This document shows positions 21,383-31,679 of a DNA stretch of 64,000 nucleotides, piece after piece. The DNA lies in contig CALXHR010000004.1 in NCBI GenBank assembly GCA_944388175.1, positions 78,097 to 142,096 on the forward strand, written 5' to 3'. Under the pieces are notes generated by a model that saw only the letters and a program-made list of their open reading frames with translations, did no database searches and was not told where the DNA came from. The stretch comes from an uncultured Gemmiger sp. GTDB taxonomy: Bacteria > Bacillota > Clostridia > Oscillospirales > Ruminococcaceae. A program made the translations under genes and the position numbers. The first letter of the stretch is position 1. The number at the start of each line of letters is the position of its first letter.

Positions 21383-22006
21383 TCACGCGGCGGGGCGGAT
21401 CATGTCGAGCCCCTGCTGCAGCGTCTGTTCATTGATCGCGCCCTGCGCCCAGGCGACGAGGTTGCCCTCGGCGTCGAGGAAGTAGGTCGTGGGCAGCGCC
21501 GTGACGCCGTAGGTCGTGGCGGCGTCAAGGTCGAGGTCGAACAACACGGGGAAGGTGTAGCCCTCCTGCGCCAACAGCGCTTCGGCGTCGGCCTGCGTCT
21601 CGCGCCCGCCCGTCATGTTGACGAGCAGGAACTGCACGCCATCCTCCTGCTCATACGCCTGCTGGAAAGCCGGCATCTCGCTTTTGCAGGGGCCGCACCA
21701 GCTGGCCCAGAAGTTGAGCACCAGCGGTTTGCCGAAATAGTCTGAAAGCTGCACGGCGTTGCCGTCGGCGTCGTAGGCCGTAAAGTCCGGCGCGGCGGTG
21801 CGTTCCGGCGCGGCGTCCTCCGCCGTCTGCTGTGCGCCGGGCTGTGCGGCTCCGCTTTCGGCGGGGTCGGCGGGCACCGGCGTGGATTCGACAGCCAGCT
21901 GGTCGGGCGCATACTGGCTGCCCAGGCGGTTATACAGCAGGTAGGCCCCCGCCAGCACAATGACGAACGCCAGCACCAGCAGGACTAAAGTTTTGCGGTC
22001 TTTCAT
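21383..22006 (-). CDS. TlpA/ResA-type thiol-disulfide oxidoreductase
   Basis: This is a membrane-anchored thioredoxin-fold protein of 207 residues. One N-terminal TM helix (about 6-26) is followed by a Pro/Ala/Glu-rich spacer and then a thioredoxin domain with FWASWCGPCKSEMP (active-site CGPC) and the cis-Pro segment ALPTTYF. It probably reduces disulfides outside the membrane using electrons passed by CcdA, encoded 15 bp upstream on the same strand. Targets may include exported proteins; no cytochrome c maturation genes are visible here, so a general envelope thiol-redox role is more likely. Confidence 0.92.
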   Translation of the reverse strand: MKDRKTLVLLVLAFVIVLAGAYLLYNRLGSQYAPDQLAVESTPVPADPAESGAAQPGAQQTAEDAAPERTAAPDFTAYDADGNAVQLSDYFGKPLVLNFWASWCGPCKSEMPAFQQAYEQEDGVQFLLVNMTGGRETQADAEALLAQEGYTFPVLFDLDLDAATTYGVTALPTTYFLDAEGNLVAWAQGAINEQTLQQGLDMIRPAA

Positions 22007-22021
22007 GGCAACCTCCTTGGA

Positions 22022-22681
22022 TTAGCTGAGCAGGTTGAGGAAACGCCCCATCAGGCCGGTGGCCATCAGCACGCCCACGACGATGAGAAAGACGCCGCAC
22101 ACGCGGTTGAGGACCCCGTAATGGCGCTTGACCCAGTCAAACGCCGTCTTGAGCCGGTCGATGAGCACGGCGCTGAGCACGAACGGCACGCCCAGCCCCA
22201 GCGAGTAGGCCAGCAGCATCGCCATGCCCACCAGCACATGCCCCTGCTGGGACGCCAGCGCCAGTGCCGAGCCGAGGAACGCCCCGACGCAGGGCGTCCA
22301 CCCCAGCGAGAACACAACGCCGAACAGCACCGCCGCGCCAAAGCCCATCTGGGTGTTGACCGTGCGGCTGCTGCCGCGGAACAGCGTGAGCCGGATGACG
22401 CCGAGGTAGCAAAGGCCGAAGAAGATGACCACCGCGCCGCAGACGATGTTGACGGCCGTGTGGTACTGCTGCAGCAGCTGCCCGGCGGTGCCGGCCAGCG
22501 CGCCCATAAGCACAAAGACGACGGTGAACCCGGCCACAAAGCCCAGCGCGCCCGCCAGCGTTTTGCGGGTGCTGCGTTCGCCCCCGCCCGCAAAGTAGCT
22601 GAGGTAGACCGGCAGCATCGGCAGCAGGCAGGGCGAGAGGAAGGTGATGACCCCCTCCAAAAAAGCGATGAAATATTGCAT
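22022..22681 (-). CDS. ccdA: CcdA/DsbD-type transmembrane electron carrier
   Basis: This is a polytopic protein of 219 residues and about six helices that moves reducing equivalents from cytoplasmic thioredoxin across the membrane. Signature motifs are GVITFLSPCLLPMLPVYLSY with one redox Cys and FSLGWTPCVGAFLGS with the second. The start at 22681 follows AGGAGCG; the open frame extends 28 codons upstream but without a ribosome site. Its product is the obvious electron donor for the TlpA-like protein translated next. Confidence 0.93.
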   Translation of the reverse strand: MQYFIAFLEGVITFLSPCLLPMLPVYLSYFAGGGERSTRKTLAGALGFVAGFTVVFVLMGALAGTAGQLLQQYHTAVNIVCGAVVIFFGLCYLGVIRLTLFRGSSRTVNTQMGFGAAVLFGVVFSLGWTPCVGAFLGSALALASQQGHVLVGMAMLLAYSLGLGVPFVLSAVLIDRLKTAFDWVKRHYGVLNRVCGVFLIVVGVLMATGLMGRFLNLLS

Positions 22682-22827
22682 GGAACGCTCCTGTACGGTT
22701 TTTCCTTTGTATGGTTTTGCCTTAGTATACCCGGCGCCATGCCATTTTGTCGGTGACTTTGTCACGCTGGCGGCGGGGCGCTCTTATCCTACCATAGCGC
22801 GGCCTTTGTGGCAAGCCAAAAAACAAA

Positions 22828-22891: not shown

Positions 22892-23308
22892 TCAGTACCC
22901 GGCGCGGTGGCGGCGCACTGCCGAAAGCCGCGCCGTGGCGCGGGCCAGGGCGGCCTTGCTGCGGTAATACTCGCGCTGGCTGCCGTGCTGGCGCAGGCGT
23001 TCCTCGGCGCGGGATTTGGCGCGCTGGGCGCGGGCTTCGTCGATCTGCTCGGGGCGTTCGGCGGTGGAGACGAGCACCACAGCGTAGTCCGACATGATCT
23101 CGGCAAAGCCGTGGGTGACGATGACGCTGGTCCATGCGCCGTCCACCTTGTAGCGGGCTTCGCCCGGCTCAATGGCGGCAACCTCCGGCCCGTGCCCGGC
23201 TTCGACGCCGTAGCTGCCGTCGGTGGCGGGCAGGATCAAACTTTCGACCTGGCCGGTAAAAAACGGGCCCTCGGGGGTGACGATCTCCAGCAAAAATGTG
23301 TTGGCCAT
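22892..23308 (-). CDS. atpC: F1Fo ATP synthase epsilon subunit
   Basis: This is the central-stalk subunit that binds gamma and can inhibit ATP hydrolysis. The 138 residues start MANTFLLEIVTPEGPFF, a ten-strand beta sandwich typical of the N-terminal domain, with GSYGVEAGHGPEVAAI; a C-terminal helical hairpin rich in Arg/Ala (EARAQRAKSRAEERL) follows. The ATG abuts the atpD stop (TAA then ATG on the minus strand). It is the last gene of the operon, followed by a terminator. Confidence 0.95.
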   Translation of the reverse strand: MANTFLLEIVTPEGPFFTGQVESLILPATDGSYGVEAGHGPEVAAIEPGEARYKVDGAWTSVIVTHGFAEIMSDYAVVLVSTAERPEQIDEARAQRAKSRAEERLRQHGSQREYYRSKAALARATARLSAVRRHRAGY

Positions 23309-25619
<2,311 letters not shown>

Positions 25620-25632
<13 letters not shown>

Positions 25633-27665
25633 TGCGCGCTCACCTGCTTTTTGTAGCCGTCCAGCGTGGTGCGGATCTGCTCGGTCGCGGGGCCGGGCAG
25701 CGTGCCGCTGGCCGCGATGCCGGCCATGAGGTCGGGCCGTTCGCGCTCGAGCAGGTCGACAAAGTCGTTGGCAAAGCCGCGCACCTCCTCCACCGGGACG
25801 TCGGCCAGCAGGCCGCTGGTGGCGATGTAGAGCACGACCGCCTGGCGCGCGGCCGACATCGGCGTGCTGCGCGGCTGGCGCAGCAGGGCCATCATGCGTT
25901 TGCCGTGGTCCAGCGCCTTGCGGGTGCCGGCGTCGAGGTCGGAACTGAACTGGGTGAACACTTCCAGTTCGCGGTAGCGGGCCAGGTCGATGCGCAGCGT
26001 GCCGGCCGTCTTTTTGATGGCCGGGATCTGCGCCGCACCGCCCACGCGCGACACCGACAAACCGACGTTGACCGCCGGGCGCTGGCCGGAATGGAACAGC
26101 CCGCTTTCGAGGTAAATCTGGCCATCGGTGATGGAGATGACGTTCGTGGGGATATAGGCCGACACGTCGCCGGCCTGCGTCTCGACGATGGGCAGCGCCG
26201 TCATGGAACCACCGCCGTACTCCTGCGTGACGCGGCAGGCGCGTTCCAGCAGGCGGCTGTGCAGGTAAAACACGTCGCCGGGGTAGGCTTCGCGCCCGGG
26301 GCTGCGCTGCAACAGCAGCGACAGCGTGCGGTAGGCCACCGCGTGTTTGGAAAGGTCGTCGTAGACGATGAGCACATCCTTGCCGTGGGCCATAAAATAC
26401 TCGCCCATAGCGGCGCCCGCATAGGGTGCGATGTACTGCATGGGCGCGCCCTCGGCCGCCGTGGCCGAAACCAGGATGGTGTACGCCAGCGCGCCGTGCT
26501 GGCGCAGCGTCTCGCGCAGGCGGGCGACGGTGGATTCCTTTTGGCCGATGGCGACGTAGATGCAGATCATATCCTGGCCCTTCTGGTTCAGGATGGCGTC
26601 GACGGCAATGGCCGTCTTGCCGGTCTGGCGGTCGCCGATGATGAGCTCGCGCTGGCCGCGGCCGATGGGCACCATGGCGTCGATGGCCAGGATGCCGGTC
26701 TGCATCGGCTGGTTGACGGGTTCGCGGCTGATGACGCCGGGGGCTTCGTGCTCAATGGGGTAGCGCTCGCTGGTCTGGACGGGGCCCAGGCCGTCGAGGG
26801 GGCGGCCCAGGGCGTCGACGGTGCGGCCGATGAGGGCTTCGCCCACCGGCACGTCGGCCGGGCGGCCGGTGCGGCGGCAGAGACTGCCCTCCTCCAGGCC
26901 GTCCTGGCTGCCCAGCAGGATGACGCCGGTATGCTTGCGGCGCAAATCCAGCACGATGCCGGCGGTGCCGTTGGCAAATTCGACGCGCTCGCCATAGACG
27001 GCGTGCTGCATGCCGCTGACGGTGGCAATGCCGTCGCCAACCGACAGTACGCGCCCGGTCTCGACGGTATCGGCGGCGTCCTCGCTGCGGATGGCCGCCT
27101 TGATGCGGTCCTGCATGGCCGCCAGGCCGGCGTCCGCGCCGGCGGCAGGGTCGTCCCGCAGGCCGCGAGCCAGGCGGTCCAGCCGGCCTTTGACGCTGTA
27201 GTCATAGGTCAGGCCGTTGACGTCCAGCACAAAGCCGCCCAGGATAGCGGGGTCGACGTGGATATCCAGCACAGCGTTTTCGGCGCCGCACAGCTTGCAG
27301 ACCGCTTTGCGCAGGGTCTGCTGCGTGGCTTCGTCGGGCTGGCGGGCGCAGGTGACCCGGCAGGCCACGCCGCCCCGGGCCGCCAGCGCCAGGCGGGAAA
27401 ATTCCGCCAAAATGGCGGGCAGGTCGGCCAGCGCATCGGCGTCGGCCAGGATATCCAAAAAGGCTTTCAGTGCGTCGCAGCCCACCAGCATGGGGGCGTC
27501 GGCCAGCAACTGCTGTTTTTCCGCCGGGGTCGCCGCCGGGCTCGTCAGGGCGTTCCAGCGGGCGGTATCGGCCAGCAGGGCGTCGCCTGCGGCGCGCACG
27601 GCCGGGGCGTCGTCGCCGGCAGCCCCCAGCAGGGCGGCGGCATAACGCTGGGTCATCTCGCTCAT
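25620..27665 (-). CDS. F1Fo ATP synthase delta-alpha fusion protein
   Basis: One uninterrupted ORF of 681 codons encodes what are normally two subunits. Residues 1 to about 165 are the delta (AtpH) stator subunit: [13 protein letters not shown] at the start and the C-terminal [14 protein letters not shown]...[13 protein letters not shown]. After a short linker ([14 protein letters not shown]), residues from about Met184 are alpha (AtpA): [18 protein letters not shown], Walker A GDRQTGKT (about 342-349), [19 protein letters not shown], and [14 protein letters not shown] with the arginine finger region. No stop, frameshift or ribosome site appears at the junction, although Met184 is an in-frame ATG. 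The start overlaps the atpF stop (ATGA). Alpha lacks about ten of its usual first residues. Confidence 0.9.
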
Positions 27666-28150
27666 TGCGCGTTCCCCACTTTCTGCAGGAATTCCTCGGC
27701 CAGGGCGCGGTCGTCGTCGGTATCCAGGCGCTTGGCGGCGATTTCGGCGGCGGCCAGCACGGCCAGCTGCGCTACCTCGCCGCGGGCGGCGCGCAGCATC
27801 TCGCTGCGTTCCGCTTCGATGCGGCGGGCGGCGTCCTCGGCGCGCTGTTTGGCGTCGGCGTCGGCCTCGGCCATGCGTTCGTCATAGGCCGCGTCGGCGC
27901 GCTGCTTGGCGTCGGCCACCAGCTGGGCGGCCTCCTGCCGGGCGGCGGCGAGCTTTTGCTCATACTCGGCCTGCGCCTGCTGCGCCTTGGTGTTGGCGGT
28001 CTCGGCGTCGGTGAGTTGCTGTTGAATCAGCTGTTCGCGCTGCGCCAGCACGGCGTTGACGCGCCCGAACAGAAATTTGCGGAAAAAGAAGTACAGCACC
28101 AGCAGGTTGATGATGGTGCAGACGATGGTCACGGGCTGGAAGTCCAGCAT
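27662..28150 (-). CDS. atpF: F1Fo ATP synthase b subunit
   Basis: This is the peripheral stalk subunit, 162 residues: one N-terminal membrane helix ([20 protein letters not shown]), then a long Ala/Gln/Glu/Arg-rich helix for dimerisation (about 40-140) and a C-terminal [27 protein letters not shown] that contacts delta. The ATG at 28150 lies seven bases after AGGAGGT; a GTG three codons upstream falls in the ribosome site. It overlaps the delta-alpha gene by 4 bp. Confidence 0.95.
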
Positions 28151-28188
28151 CCCGCACACCTCCTTACAAAGTGTTCAAAAAGCGGTTT

Positions 28189-28407
28189 TCAGCCCACAAA
28201 GACGATGATGAGCGCGGTGATAAAGCCAAAGATGGCGGTGCCTTCGGCCATGGCGGCGCCCAGCAGCAGCGTGCTGGTGATCTTGCCGGAAGCTTCCGGC
28301 TGGCGGGCGATGGCGTCGTTGGCGTGGGCGGTGGCGATGCCGATGCCGATGCCGGCGCCGATGCCGGTGAGAACTGCGATGCCTGCGGCGATGATTCCGA
28401 TATCCAT
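28189..28407 (-). CDS. atpE: F1Fo ATP synthase c subunit (proton type)
   Basis: This is the 72-residue hairpin that forms the rotor ring. Two membrane helices flank the polar loop ARQPEAS. The ion-binding carboxylate is Glu55 in AAMAEGTAIFGF. Positions used for sodium binding in Na+-type rings are not conserved: the Gln of helix 1 is Ile22 and the Ser after the Glu is Gly56, so proton coupling is expected. It lies between the a and b genes. Confidence 0.95.
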   Translation of the reverse strand: MDIGIIAAGIAVLTGIGAGIGIGIATAHANDAIARQPEASGKITSTLLLGAAMAEGTAIFGFITALIIVFVG

Positions 28408-28452: not shown

Positions 28453-29151
28453 TCAGGCTTCTTCCTGCTTGATGCCCTCGCCGGTGAAGAGCGCGGTCAA
28501 AAACACAAAGACGATGGTCTGGATGATGCCGTCGAACAGGTCAAAATAGATGCCAAAGACGGCGGGCACAACGGCGGGCACCAGGTACTTGATCATCTCC
28601 ATGATGATGTAGGAGCCCAGCACGTTGCCGAACAGACGCATGCACAGCGCCAGCGGGCGGATGGCGACTTCCATCAGGTTGATGGGCGTCAGCAGCGGCA
28701 TGGGCTGCGCAAAGCGCTTGAGACCGCCGCCCGGGCCGTTGTAGCGGAACTGCGCGCCGTAGATCAGCGCCATGCTCATGAGCGCCAGCGCCGTGGTGAC
28801 GCTGATGTCCTTGGTGGGGGAGCTGAGCCCAAAGATGCCGATGATGTTGGCCAGCGCAATGTAGATGGCCACCGTGCCCAGATACGGCGCAAACGGCCGC
28901 CAGTGCGGGCCGATGGAGTCCTTGACGAAGCCGTTCAAGAACTGGACGGCGCTTTCCAGCACGACCTGGACTTTGCCGGGGTCCCGCACCTTGAGGTTGC
29001 GGGTGGCCAGCAGTGTAAACAGAACGCACGCCGCCATGATGACCCAGCTGACGACGAGCGACGACGCGATGGGGATGCCGCCGAACGCCGGGATGGTGAA
29101 CGCGGTCTCGTTTTCCAGCGCTTCCAGCAGGGCTTGTTTAAAACCTTCCAA
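28453..29151 (-). CDS. atpB: F1Fo ATP synthase a subunit
   Basis: This is the membrane stator subunit forming the proton half-channels, 232 residues with five to six helices. The essential arginine lies in the helix segment EVAIRPLALCMRLFGNVLG, and the last helix contains DLFDGIIQTIVFVFLTALF. It is the first gene of the operon. In 29152-29280 on the minus strand only weak promoter candidates are visible (TTGCTT-17-TTATCA). Confidence 0.95.
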   Translation of the reverse strand: MEGFKQALLEALENETAFTIPAFGGIPIASSLVVSWVIMAACVLFTLLATRNLKVRDPGKVQVVLESAVQFLNGFVKDSIGPHWRPFAPYLGTVAIYIALANIIGIFGLSSPTKDISVTTALALMSMALIYGAQFRYNGPGGGLKRFAQPMPLLTPINLMEVAIRPLALCMRLFGNVLGSYIIMEMIKYLVPAVVPAVFGIYFDLFDGIIQTIVFVFLTALFTGEGIKQEEA

Positions 29152-29284
29152 GCAATTTCACCTCGTTTCGTCCCCTATCTTACCGCCGGGGCGCGCCGGT
29201 GATAAGGCTTTGGAACATAAAAAAAGCAAAGTCGTAGAAACCGCCGCATTTTCTTTATACTTTCCCCCCAAACTTTGTGCAACA

Positions 29285-29313
29285 TTGACGATTCTGCCCC
29301 CAGGTGGTATCAT
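29285..29313 (+). promoter_or_regulatory. Promoter of the CitA/DcuS-type kinase operon
   Basis: TTGACG (29285-29290), a 17-bp spacer and TATCAT (29308-29313) lie 40 bp before the kinase start. Confidence 0.7.
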
Positions 29314-29353
29314 AACCGCAAACGGGCGTTTTACGCGCAGAAAGGGGGCCGCC

Positions 29354-30979
29354 GTGGTGCAAAAGACCGCCGGGCAGACGCTGTACCAGCAGATTCGCCG
29401 CGTGAGCGTGCTGGGCATTCTGGTGGCGATGATCCTGGCCACCGGCGCCGGGCTGTGGCTGAGCCTTGCGCAGGAGCAGCGCATGCGCGACGACACGCTG
29501 ACCGCCGCCGTGCAGGCCGCGGCCCACGCGCTGGCCCTGGACGGGGGCAGCGACGCGCAGCAGCTGCAGGAATACACCCTGCGCACGGTGGAGGGCATTG
29601 AGGGCGTCGACCTGTTTGCCGTGTACGACGGGCAGGGCCAGCCGGTGTATTACGCCGACATTGTATCGGGGCAGGCCGGCCGCGCCGGGCTGCCGGCGCT
29701 GGACGCCGAACTGTGCCGCCGCCTGGCCCACAGCGGCGAGGTGCTGCTGGACGACGCCGAGACCCCGCTGGGCGCCGACCACTGCGCCGTGACCGCCGTG
29801 CGCGGTGCGGACGGCGCGGTGACCGGCTACGTGCTGGCCGGGCTGTACCTGCGGTCCATCCGCACGATGGCGCTGCGCACGCTGGGGGTGTTTGTGGGCA
29901 TCGGGCTGGCGGCGCTGGGCGTCGGCACGCTGTTGAGCCTGCAGCTGGCCCGCCGCATCAAAAGCGGGCTGCTGGGGTATGAGCCGGACGCTTTCCGCGA
30001 TTTGTTTTTGCGCCGCATGGAGCTGCTGGACGCCCTGGACGAGGGGCTGCTGGCCATCGACCGCGACGCGCACATTCTGTACATCAACCGCGCGGCGGCC
30101 GAGATGCTCTCGTTTGACAAGGACGCCGTGCTGGGCCGCCCGCTGGCCGAAGTGTACCCCCAGTCCACCATCCCGCAGGTGCTGCGCACCCAACAGGCCG
30201 AGTACAATGTCAGCCTGGAATCGCTGCAGCACGTGCGCATTTTGTCCGACCGGATGCCGGTTTGGCGCGACGGGCGCATCGTGGGGGCGGTGGCGATTTT
30301 CCGCAACCGCACCGAGGTCGCCCGCCTGGCCCGCGAGCTGACCGGCGTGCAGCACATTGTGGAAGCGATGCGCGCCTACACCCACGAGTTCATGAACAAG
30401 CTGCATGTGATCCTGGGGCTGCTGCAACTGGGCGAAGCGCAGCGGGCCGAGGAATACGTTTTGCAGCTGACCCAGACGCGGACGCTTTCGACCCGGCAGA
30501 TTTCCGCCTGCATCGCCGAGCCGTCGGTGGCGGCGCTTCTGATCGGCAAAAGCTGCCGCGCGGCCGAGCTGGGCGTGCGCCTGACGCTGGACCCCGCCAG
30601 CCATCTGGGTGCCGACCCGCGCGGCCTGCCGGCCCCGGCCATGATTACGGTGCTGGGCAATTTGATTGAGAACGCGTTCGACGCCTTTGCCCAGACGCCC
30701 GGCCGCGCGCTGCACGAAGTGAGCGTTTCGGTGCGCGAGGGCGAACAGGGGCTGATTTTGAGCGTCGACGACAACGCCTGCGGCATGAGCGACGAGGTGC
30801 GCCGCCACCTGTTTGAGCGGGGCGCGACCTCCAAGGGCGAGGGGCACGGCACCGGGCTGTATCTGGTCAAGCAGATCGTGGACGCCTACCACGGCGATAT
30901 CCGGGTGGAGTCGACGCGCGGGGTGGGCAGTTCGTTTGTTATCACCTTCCGCCCCGGCGCCGACGCGCCGGAGCCGTAA
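29354..30979 (+). CDS. Sensor histidine kinase, CitA/DcuS family
   Basis: This is a 541-residue membrane kinase. TM1 is VLGILVAMILATGAGLWLSL, the extracytoplasmic sensor spans about residues 40-170 (CitA-like PAS), TM2 is LGVFVGIGLAALGVGTLLSL, a cytoplasmic PAS follows (LDEGLLAIDRDAHILYIN), then a Spo0B-like H-box AYTHEFMNKLHVILGLL with His344, and an ATPase domain with NLIENAFDA, DNACGM and GHGTGLYLVKQ. Two adjacent GTG codons (29354, 29357) follow AAAGGGGG; the first is used here. It forms an operon with the CitB-type regulator 22 bp downstream. This family usually senses di- or tricarboxylates. Confidence 0.92.
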   Translation: MVQKTAGQTLYQQIRRVSVLGILVAMILATGAGLWLSLAQEQRMRDDTLTAAVQAAAHALALDGGSDAQQLQEYTLRTVEGIEGVDLFAVYDGQGQPVYYADIVSGQAGRAGLPALDAELCRRLAHSGEVLLDDAETPLGADHCAVTAVRGADGAVTGYVLAGLYLRSIRTMALRTLGVFVGIGLAALGVGTLLSLQLARRIKSGLLGYEPDAFRDLFLRRMELLDALDEGLLAIDRDAHILYINRAAAEMLSFDKDAVLGRPLAEVYPQSTIPQVLRTQQAEYNVSLESLQHVRILSDRMPVWRDGRIVGAVAIFRNRTEVARLARELTGVQHIVEAMRAYTHEFMNKLHVILGLLQLGEAQRAEEYVLQLTQTRTLSTRQISACIAEPSVAALLIGKSCRAAELGVRLTLDPASHLGADPRGLPAPAMITVLGNLIENAFDAFAQTPGRALHEVSVSVREGEQGLILSVDDNACGMSDEVRRHLFERGATSKGEGHGTGLYLVKQIVDAYHGDIRVESTRGVGSSFVITFRPGADAPEP

Positions 30980-31001
30980 CGCACCTGTAAGGAGGGACGC
31001 T

Positions 31002-31679
31002 TTGTATACCGTTGTCATTGTGGAGGACGACCCCATGATCGCCGAGCTCAACCGCCGCTACATCGAGCGCGACGGCCGCTTTGCGGTGGCGCACACCTTT
31101 GCGCAGCCGCGCCCCGCGCTGGACTGGCTGCGCCGCAACGCCGCCGATTTGGTGATTTTGGATTTTTACATGCCGCAGATGAACGGCCTGGAACTGCTGC
31201 AGGGCATCCGCGCCGCGGGCGTGGCGGCCGACGTCATTATGGTGACGGCCGCCAACGACGCCGCCACCGTGGAAGCGCTGACCCGCCTGGGCGTGGTGGA
31301 CTACCTGGTCAAGCCGTTTGCCTACGAGCGGTTCTGCCGCGCGCTGGACGCCTTTTGCCGCCGGCGCAGCGCCATGCAGGGCGGCAGCCTGGACCAGGAC
31401 GCACTGGACAGCCTGCTGCACACCGCGCCCCCGGCCGCGCTGCCCAAGGGCCTGCAGCCCCAAACGCAGGAGCGCGTGCTGGCCTGCCTGCGCGCCGCGC
31501 CGCCGCACGGCTATACCAGCGAGGAAGTGGCCGAAGCGGCCGGTATCTCGGTGGTGACGGCGCGGCGCTACCTGGCCTACCTGGCGCAGCAGGGGCTGGT
31601 GACAAGCACGATGAACTACGGCACCGGCGGCCGCCCCAGCCTGATCTACCGCCTGACGGACCGCCCCCGCGGCGGTTGA
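31002..31679 (+). CDS. Response regulator, CitB/DcuR family
   Basis: This is a 225-residue partner of the preceding kinase. The receiver has VIVEDDPMI, phospho-acceptor Asp in LVILDFYMPQMNG, and Lys in YLVKPF. A C-terminal HTH (GYTSEEVAEAAGISVVTARRYLAYL) is typical of CitT/DcuR regulators. The start is a TTG at 31002, five bases after AAGGAGGG; no ATG fits. Likely targets are carboxylate transport genes, of which the permease at 32.2-33.4 kb is a candidate, though no operator was recognised. Confidence 0.9.
   Translation: MYTVVIVEDDPMIAELNRRYIERDGRFAVAHTFAQPRPALDWLRRNAADLVILDFYMPQMNGLELLQGIRAAGVAADVIMVTAANDAATVEALTRLGVVDYLVKPFAYERFCRALDAFCRRRSAMQGGSLDQDALDSLLHTAPPAALPKGLQPQTQERVLACLRAAPPHGYTSEEVAEAAGISVVTARRYLAYLAQQGLVTSTMNYGTGGRPSLIYRLTDRPRGG

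Follow-up and report, generated by a model that had tools for sequence, protein, structure and literature searches.

The delta and alpha subunits of the ATP synthase are normally separate proteins, present in a ratio of 1:3 per enzyme. In the window, as we call the whole 64,000-nucleotide stretch of DNA of a gut bacterium (Gemmiger) analysed here, both are encoded by one open frame of 681 codons without an internal stop, and its product is probably used as such, a delta-alpha polypeptide that would bring three tethered C-terminal delta domains to each F1. Pfam placed OSCP/delta (PF00213, profile positions 3-171/172) at residues 6-168 with 93.6 bits against a cut-off of 22.3 bits and three alpha/beta domains at residues 202-668; the NCBIfam model TIGR00962 (AtpA) matched residues 188-675, well above its cut-off of 484.45 bits (Table 1). 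The start codon of the fusion overlaps the stop codon of atpF (ATGA at 27665-27662) and its final 13 nt overlap the gamma frame; the operon order a-c-b-[delta-alpha]-gamma-beta-epsilon, with the neighbours named by reading, is otherwise standard. This is not the arrangement of a canonical F1, in which delta has a gene of its own, nor that of a b-delta fusion, since atpF is a separate frame. The initial annotation had proposed a delta-alpha fusion in an otherwise intact atp operon and had pointed to the stoichiometric puzzle of three alpha and one delta; the reading frame, the profile matches and the gene order bear this out, and the puzzle stands. Directly after atpC, on the same strand, lie genes read as thioredoxin-like and CcdA-like membrane protein genes (21383-22765), and sensor kinase-like and response regulator-like genes (28865-31679, plus strand, by reading) are transcribed away from the atp operon.

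Table 1. The fused gene, its parts and the neighbouring atp genes in the window.
Feature	Position	Strand	Length, basis or remark
Fused delta-alpha gene	25620..27665	-	681 aa; stop codon 25620-25622; ORF, Pfam, NCBIfam TIGR00962
Delta N-terminal domain (NTD), residues 1-98	27372..27665	-	delta-NTD HMM, E 4e-15 (L052, the window's own gene)
Delta C-terminal domain (CTD), residues 99-168	27162..27371	-	delta-CTD HMM, E 5e-25 (L052); Pfam OSCP
Linker and alpha N-terminal helix, residues 169-201 (33 residues)	27063..27161	-	fast-evolving, dN/dS 0.68; pLDDT <50 in parts
Met184	27114..27116	-	sole start codon found in residues 161-215; candidate internal start with weak support
Alpha subunit core, residues 202-681	25623..27062	-	TIGR00962, 736.5 bits
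atpF (b), separate gene	27662..28159	-	first possible start; by reading and use as reference
atpE (c)	28189..28407	-	named by reading
atpB (a)	28453..29151	-	first possible start; named by reading
atpG (gamma)	24727..25632	-	named by reading
atpD (beta)	23309..24730	-	first possible start; named by reading
atpC (epsilon)	22892..23308	-	named by reading

The genome assembly that contains the window is 69% complete and consists of 14 contigs, which might raise the suspicion of a sequencing or assembly artefact. This explanation has practically no probability left, because 15 of 35 genus genomes, including two that are single contigs, have a delta match within an open frame of fusion length (681-753 aa); five of the 15 matched the whole delta-alpha model (1-679) and the other ten are known from frame length only. 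One further genome (G009) has a frame cut at the contig end, 15 have a separate delta only and four gave no match. Whole fusions are also present in separately deposited named records, including Gemmiger gallinarum DSM 109015 and the complete genome of strain CCNA10. This conservation excludes chance or sequencing error; the hidden stop or frameshift which the initial annotation had named as a refutation is rejected, and the fused AtpH-AtpA frames it had suggested looking for in relatives do exist. Among named relatives, 'Candidatus Gemmiger excrementipullorum' comes closest (96% identity), and in an alignment of 17 fused proteins (window, L023-L038) identity to the window's protein was 65-96%, with the gaps and the lowest conservation falling in the junction. 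A separate delta frame is found besides the fusion in 12 of the 15 fused genus genomes, and likewise in the window's genome. The fused Gemmiger clade is broader than genus code g1, with members in g9 (G288) and g110 (G221, G143). Three loci (L039, L040 and L041), for which tblastn covered nearly the whole query, were rejected as fusions, since reading of the DNA revealed separate delta and alpha genes.

By their sequences, similar fusions also occur in other members of the family, the order, the class and the phylum. Searched with a profile built from full fusions, the 396 family genomes gave a fused frame in at least 39: 36 rows had no stop in the frame (8 of them matched 1-679), and three more genomes (G245, G414, G092) had a stop flagged inside the match, yet one frame that carries both delta CTD and alpha. 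With a junction profile, the order sample (295) gave 46 fused rows, the class sample (341) gave 33 and the phylum sample (348) at least 18; these samples and that of the family overlap in part. A row was counted if a frame without stop had at least 570 aa and reached into both delta and alpha; frames cut by contig ends (G556, G771, G1207) and rows with an internal stop were omitted. The order, class and phylum counts come from match tables, and sequence was read for the fetched loci.

Sorting of 146 alpha frames from the collected loci with HMMs built from 40 delta frames gave three fusion forms: full delta-alpha, as in the window, delta CTD-alpha and b'-deltaCTD-alpha. Every frame of at least 573 aa scored for the delta CTD (the weakest being L127 with E 9e-3 and L105 with 3e-5), and the NTD was either clearly present or undetected in them. 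The full-length form occurs in Gemmiger, CCNA10, genus g20, part of g36, G559, G628, G826, G993, G923 and G708. The CTD-only form is the largest fusion group; the NTD HMM that found the window's own NTD in the same sorting did not detect one in the rows of this class. One genome, G108 (L099), was outside the HMM sorting and was counted as fused from the family profile search and the AtpA and OSCP searches. The b'-deltaCTD-alpha form, with frames of 737-784 aa, was found in seven genomes of three families (L138-L144, e.g. L138:4221-6431), and in all seven loci, which were read, a b-like transmembrane helix and stalk precede the CTD. In the three such frames tested with Pfam, ATP-synt_B matched with E 9e-6 (just under the curated cut-off), 1e-8 and 2e-9, followed by OSCP profile positions about 98-172 and then alpha. 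A short separate frame reading as b lies beside the fusion in the operons of L138, L140 and L142; among the listed frames of the L140 operon there was no gamma. Two further genomes (G507, G577) have frames of similar length, known from frame length alone. Some loci carry additional peculiarities: two delta CTDs in tandem fused to alpha (L151:4544-6565), a CTD-alpha fusion in which a segment at the N-terminus is repeated three times (L133:1306-3222), c subunits with a signal-peptide-like N-terminal extension in six CTD-only operons (L084, L089, L090, L091, L092, L093) and an a subunit with a repeated N-terminal segment in L089/L091.

In a tree built from 113 alphas (27 from separate genes, 21 from full, 58 from CTD-only and 7 from b'-CTD fusions; near-copies dropped), 9 changes were needed between the states separate and fused. 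The careful tree places separate alphas next to both fusions: that of Agathobaculum (L039) as sister of the Gemmiger fusions, and L040 as sister of the CCNA10 fusion (L036). A single clade of Gemmiger and CCNA10 fusions was rejected with p-AU 3.3e-5, for a group picked after the first tree had been seen. These data show that Gemmiger and strain CCNA10 acquired their fusions independently and that fusions arose more than once; an old fusion, later split into separate genes, is formally conceivable as well. The separate genes of L040 share 4 nt (GTGA) between delta stop and alpha start, and fusion would be a short step from there. Within g36, a separate form (L062) branches first, then a full fusion (L063) and then full fusions (L067, L068) beside CTD-only ones (L064-L066, L070); the latter clade has support of 100/99 and its fork with L067 and L068 of 93/93. 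Four NTD-less fusions thus lie beside and inside full fusions, and in g36 the fusion apparently came first and the loss of the delta NTD second.

The initial annotation had also considered internal translation from Met184 as a source of free alpha. No Shine-Dalgarno (SD) match was found ahead of Met184, and the anti-Shine-Dalgarno duplex there amounted to -3.2 kcal/mol, versus -7.2 kcal/mol at the real start of the fusion. An SD-like core with a start codon in the junction was found in 1 of 21 full, 7 of 58 CTD-only and 0 of 7 b'-CTD fusions, compared with 15 of 27 separate alphas; it is thus missing from 20, 51 and all seven fusions of these forms, respectively. A junction start with a duplex energy of -6 or lower was present in 2 of 21, 19 of 58, 0 of 7 and 14 of 27, and three of the 21 full fusions had no start codon at all in the searched zone. 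Absence of an SD at Met184 is no proof, because many real starts lack one: 12 of the 27 separate alphas have no SD-like core, the alpha starts of seven second-operon rows (L001, L003, L007, L010, L012, L015, L022) have no SD and gamma of the window's own operon has a weak one only. Support for Met184 as an internal start is thus weak at best. There are few signs of internal starts among full-length fusions and, it seems, somewhat more among CTD-only ones. The single full fusion with a core is that of CCNA10 (L036:6001-8100), in which the alpha N-helix is duplicated and an SD-backed ATG, perhaps the remnant of the old alpha start, lies between the copies. Given such candidates in L036 and in CTD-only rows, some fusions might yield free alpha. 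That internal translation or cleavage of the linker turns the mature enzyme into an ordinary alpha3 delta1 complex is nevertheless unlikely: in its favour, the linker is modelled with low confidence and evolves fast, and a start can do without an SD-like core, but the scarcity of junction starts speaks against it and the loss of the NTD in g36 suggests that the tether itself does the anchoring.

How far the fusion is the only source of alpha and delta was read from 45 fused genomes picked by handle, 44 of which (all except the window's own) are at least 90% complete; AtpA matches at E<=1e-100 were counted as alpha, and OSCP was searched to E 0.1 with the curated family cut-off applied. In 26 of the 45 the fused gene was the single AtpA match, and in these 26 no free delta above the curated OSCP cut-off was found outside the fused frame. 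Weak matches below the cut-off occurred in G684, G633, G559, G515 and G238, and G515 had two OSCP matches, both inside the fused frame. Genomes with NTD-less fusions yielded no delta with an NTD above the cut-off, save that of the second operon where one exists. For many species the fusion is not an optional extra. The remaining 19 genomes, the window's included, have a second, separate alpha, which allows for an enzyme in which one fused alpha is joined by two free ones encoded in the second operon, and which thus has one delta. This assembly is very improbable as an explanation, since the other 26 genomes show no second alpha. Further, the second F-ATPase operon of the window's genome, which has separate delta and alpha, encodes an alpha (L001) from another part of the alpha tree, and its c subunit (L001:671-961) differs at the ion site, its helix 1 containing a glutamate and its sequence an EST motif that we take to be of the Na+ type; the c of the fused operon has neither. 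In the window's genome itself, given its separate delta and alpha, mixed complexes are possible.

The fused gene is under purifying selection in Gemmiger. Median dN/dS values of 16 fused genes (120 pairs, simple counts, L036 left out) were 0.35 for the NTD, 0.27 for the CTD, 0.68 for the linker with the N-helix and 0.17 for alpha; 21 free second-operon deltas, a more diverged set (210 pairs, 182 and 199 of them with finite dS), gave 0.28 for the NTD and 0.33 for the CTD. The differences are modest and rest on simple counts, but suggest that the NTD is still under constraint and that the CTD is relatively better kept after fusion.

In known enzymes the CTD of delta is the b-binding domain. We propose that the fused gene gives one delta-alpha polypeptide that is employed as such, so that each F1 (alpha3beta3) would carry three tethered deltas. 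The delta CTD on each alpha, held by a short flexible linker, would then be a place where a b2 stalk can dock; the three-fold axis would seat at most one of the three NTDs, and the covalent tether would replace the NTD in its anchoring job. With anchoring taken over by the tether, the NTD would be dispensable after fusion and could be lost in related lineages, and the pattern in the tree fits such a later loss.

A comparable arrangement was engineered in Bacillus PS3 FoF1, in which the delta NTD was deleted and the CTD fused to alpha (PMC12229609; PDB 9jc1). The window's protein aligned with chain 9jc1_I in one stretch (114-673) with linker gaps of two residues and one residue; this spacing is close to that of 9jc1, and the length of the tether would therefore suit a CTD on each alpha. 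An AlphaFold2 model of the whole protein was poor in alpha (mean pLDDT 63); the part comprising delta and the alpha N-terminus was better (mean pLDDT 80), was used alone for the structure search and has predicted helices in the NTD (pLDDT mostly 84-92). Its structural matches are headed by 9jc1, with a low query TM of 0.26 because the relative placing of delta and alpha carries no meaning in either model (pTM 0.39 and 0.45), and the predicted delta fold is supported by PS3 delta (6n2y_I, target TM 0.75).

All ATP synthases studied to date have a single a-subunit (PMC12229609), and the single b-stalk assumed by the initial annotation is put in question by the engineered fusion, which has up to three: 15, 51, 26 and 8% of the deltaDN-alpha particles carried 0, 1, 2 and 3 stalks, the a- and b-subunits rose 2.2- and 1.8-fold, and H+/ATP was 5.8 versus 3.0, with the equilibrium pmf nearly halved (PMC12229609). 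The NTD on the pseudo-three-fold axis was argued to restrict the enzyme to one peripheral stalk (PMC12229609), and by this argument the NTD kept in the window should limit its stalks to one. For the window's enzyme, one stalk with two spare deltas is only slightly more likely than two to three stalks. Tentatively, the full fusion may be seen as an intermediate, maybe with one to three stalks, the CTD-only form as a further step and b'-deltaCTD-alpha, with a membrane-anchored stalk strand per alpha, as a form with three stalks built in. The findings suggest that ATP synthases with two or more outer stalks may occur in nature.

The initial annotation knew of no described delta-alpha fusion; this has been overtaken, since the fusion as such, in NTD-less form, is in print since 2025 (PMC12229609), where tethering of the delta CTD to alpha is described to give up to three stalks, natural NTD-less examples are mentioned (Acidaminococcus fermentans, UniProt G4Q3K6 and A0A1I2C5T3) and natural multi-stalk enzymes are predicted. 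It is the only description of a delta-alpha fusion we found in the open-licence literature, in which, preprints aside, no report of full-length delta-alpha, of b'-deltaCTD-alpha or of a repeated origin was found. The window and its relatives form a graded natural series, from separate genes over full fusion and loss of the NTD to additional fusion of b', several members of which come from species where the search turned up no further alpha gene; whether multi-stalk ATP synthases occur in nature, and how they evolve, can thus be tested directly.

Among known systems, the b-delta fusion of Mycobacterial/Gordonia enzymes (PMC5709465; PDB 7jg5) is similar in that delta is joined to another stator subunit, but its partner is b and not the three-copy alpha, and it would be free of such a stoichiometric conflict. 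Agathobaculum butyriciproducens (L039) and Oscillospiraceae E16 bin22 (L040) are close in the alpha tree and have adjacent atpH-atpA genes, but unlike in the window delta and alpha are two proteins. Compared by description, the natural fusions of A. fermentans, G4Q3K6 and A0A1I2C5T3 also have delta fused to alpha in the atp operon; they lack the NTD which the window keeps, and it is the CTD-only relatives that resemble them. With the engineered deltaDN-alpha enzyme (9jc1) the window shares a delta CTD in frame with the alpha N-terminus over a linker of nearly equal length, but its fusion is a natural one and retains the whole delta NTD (E 4e-15).
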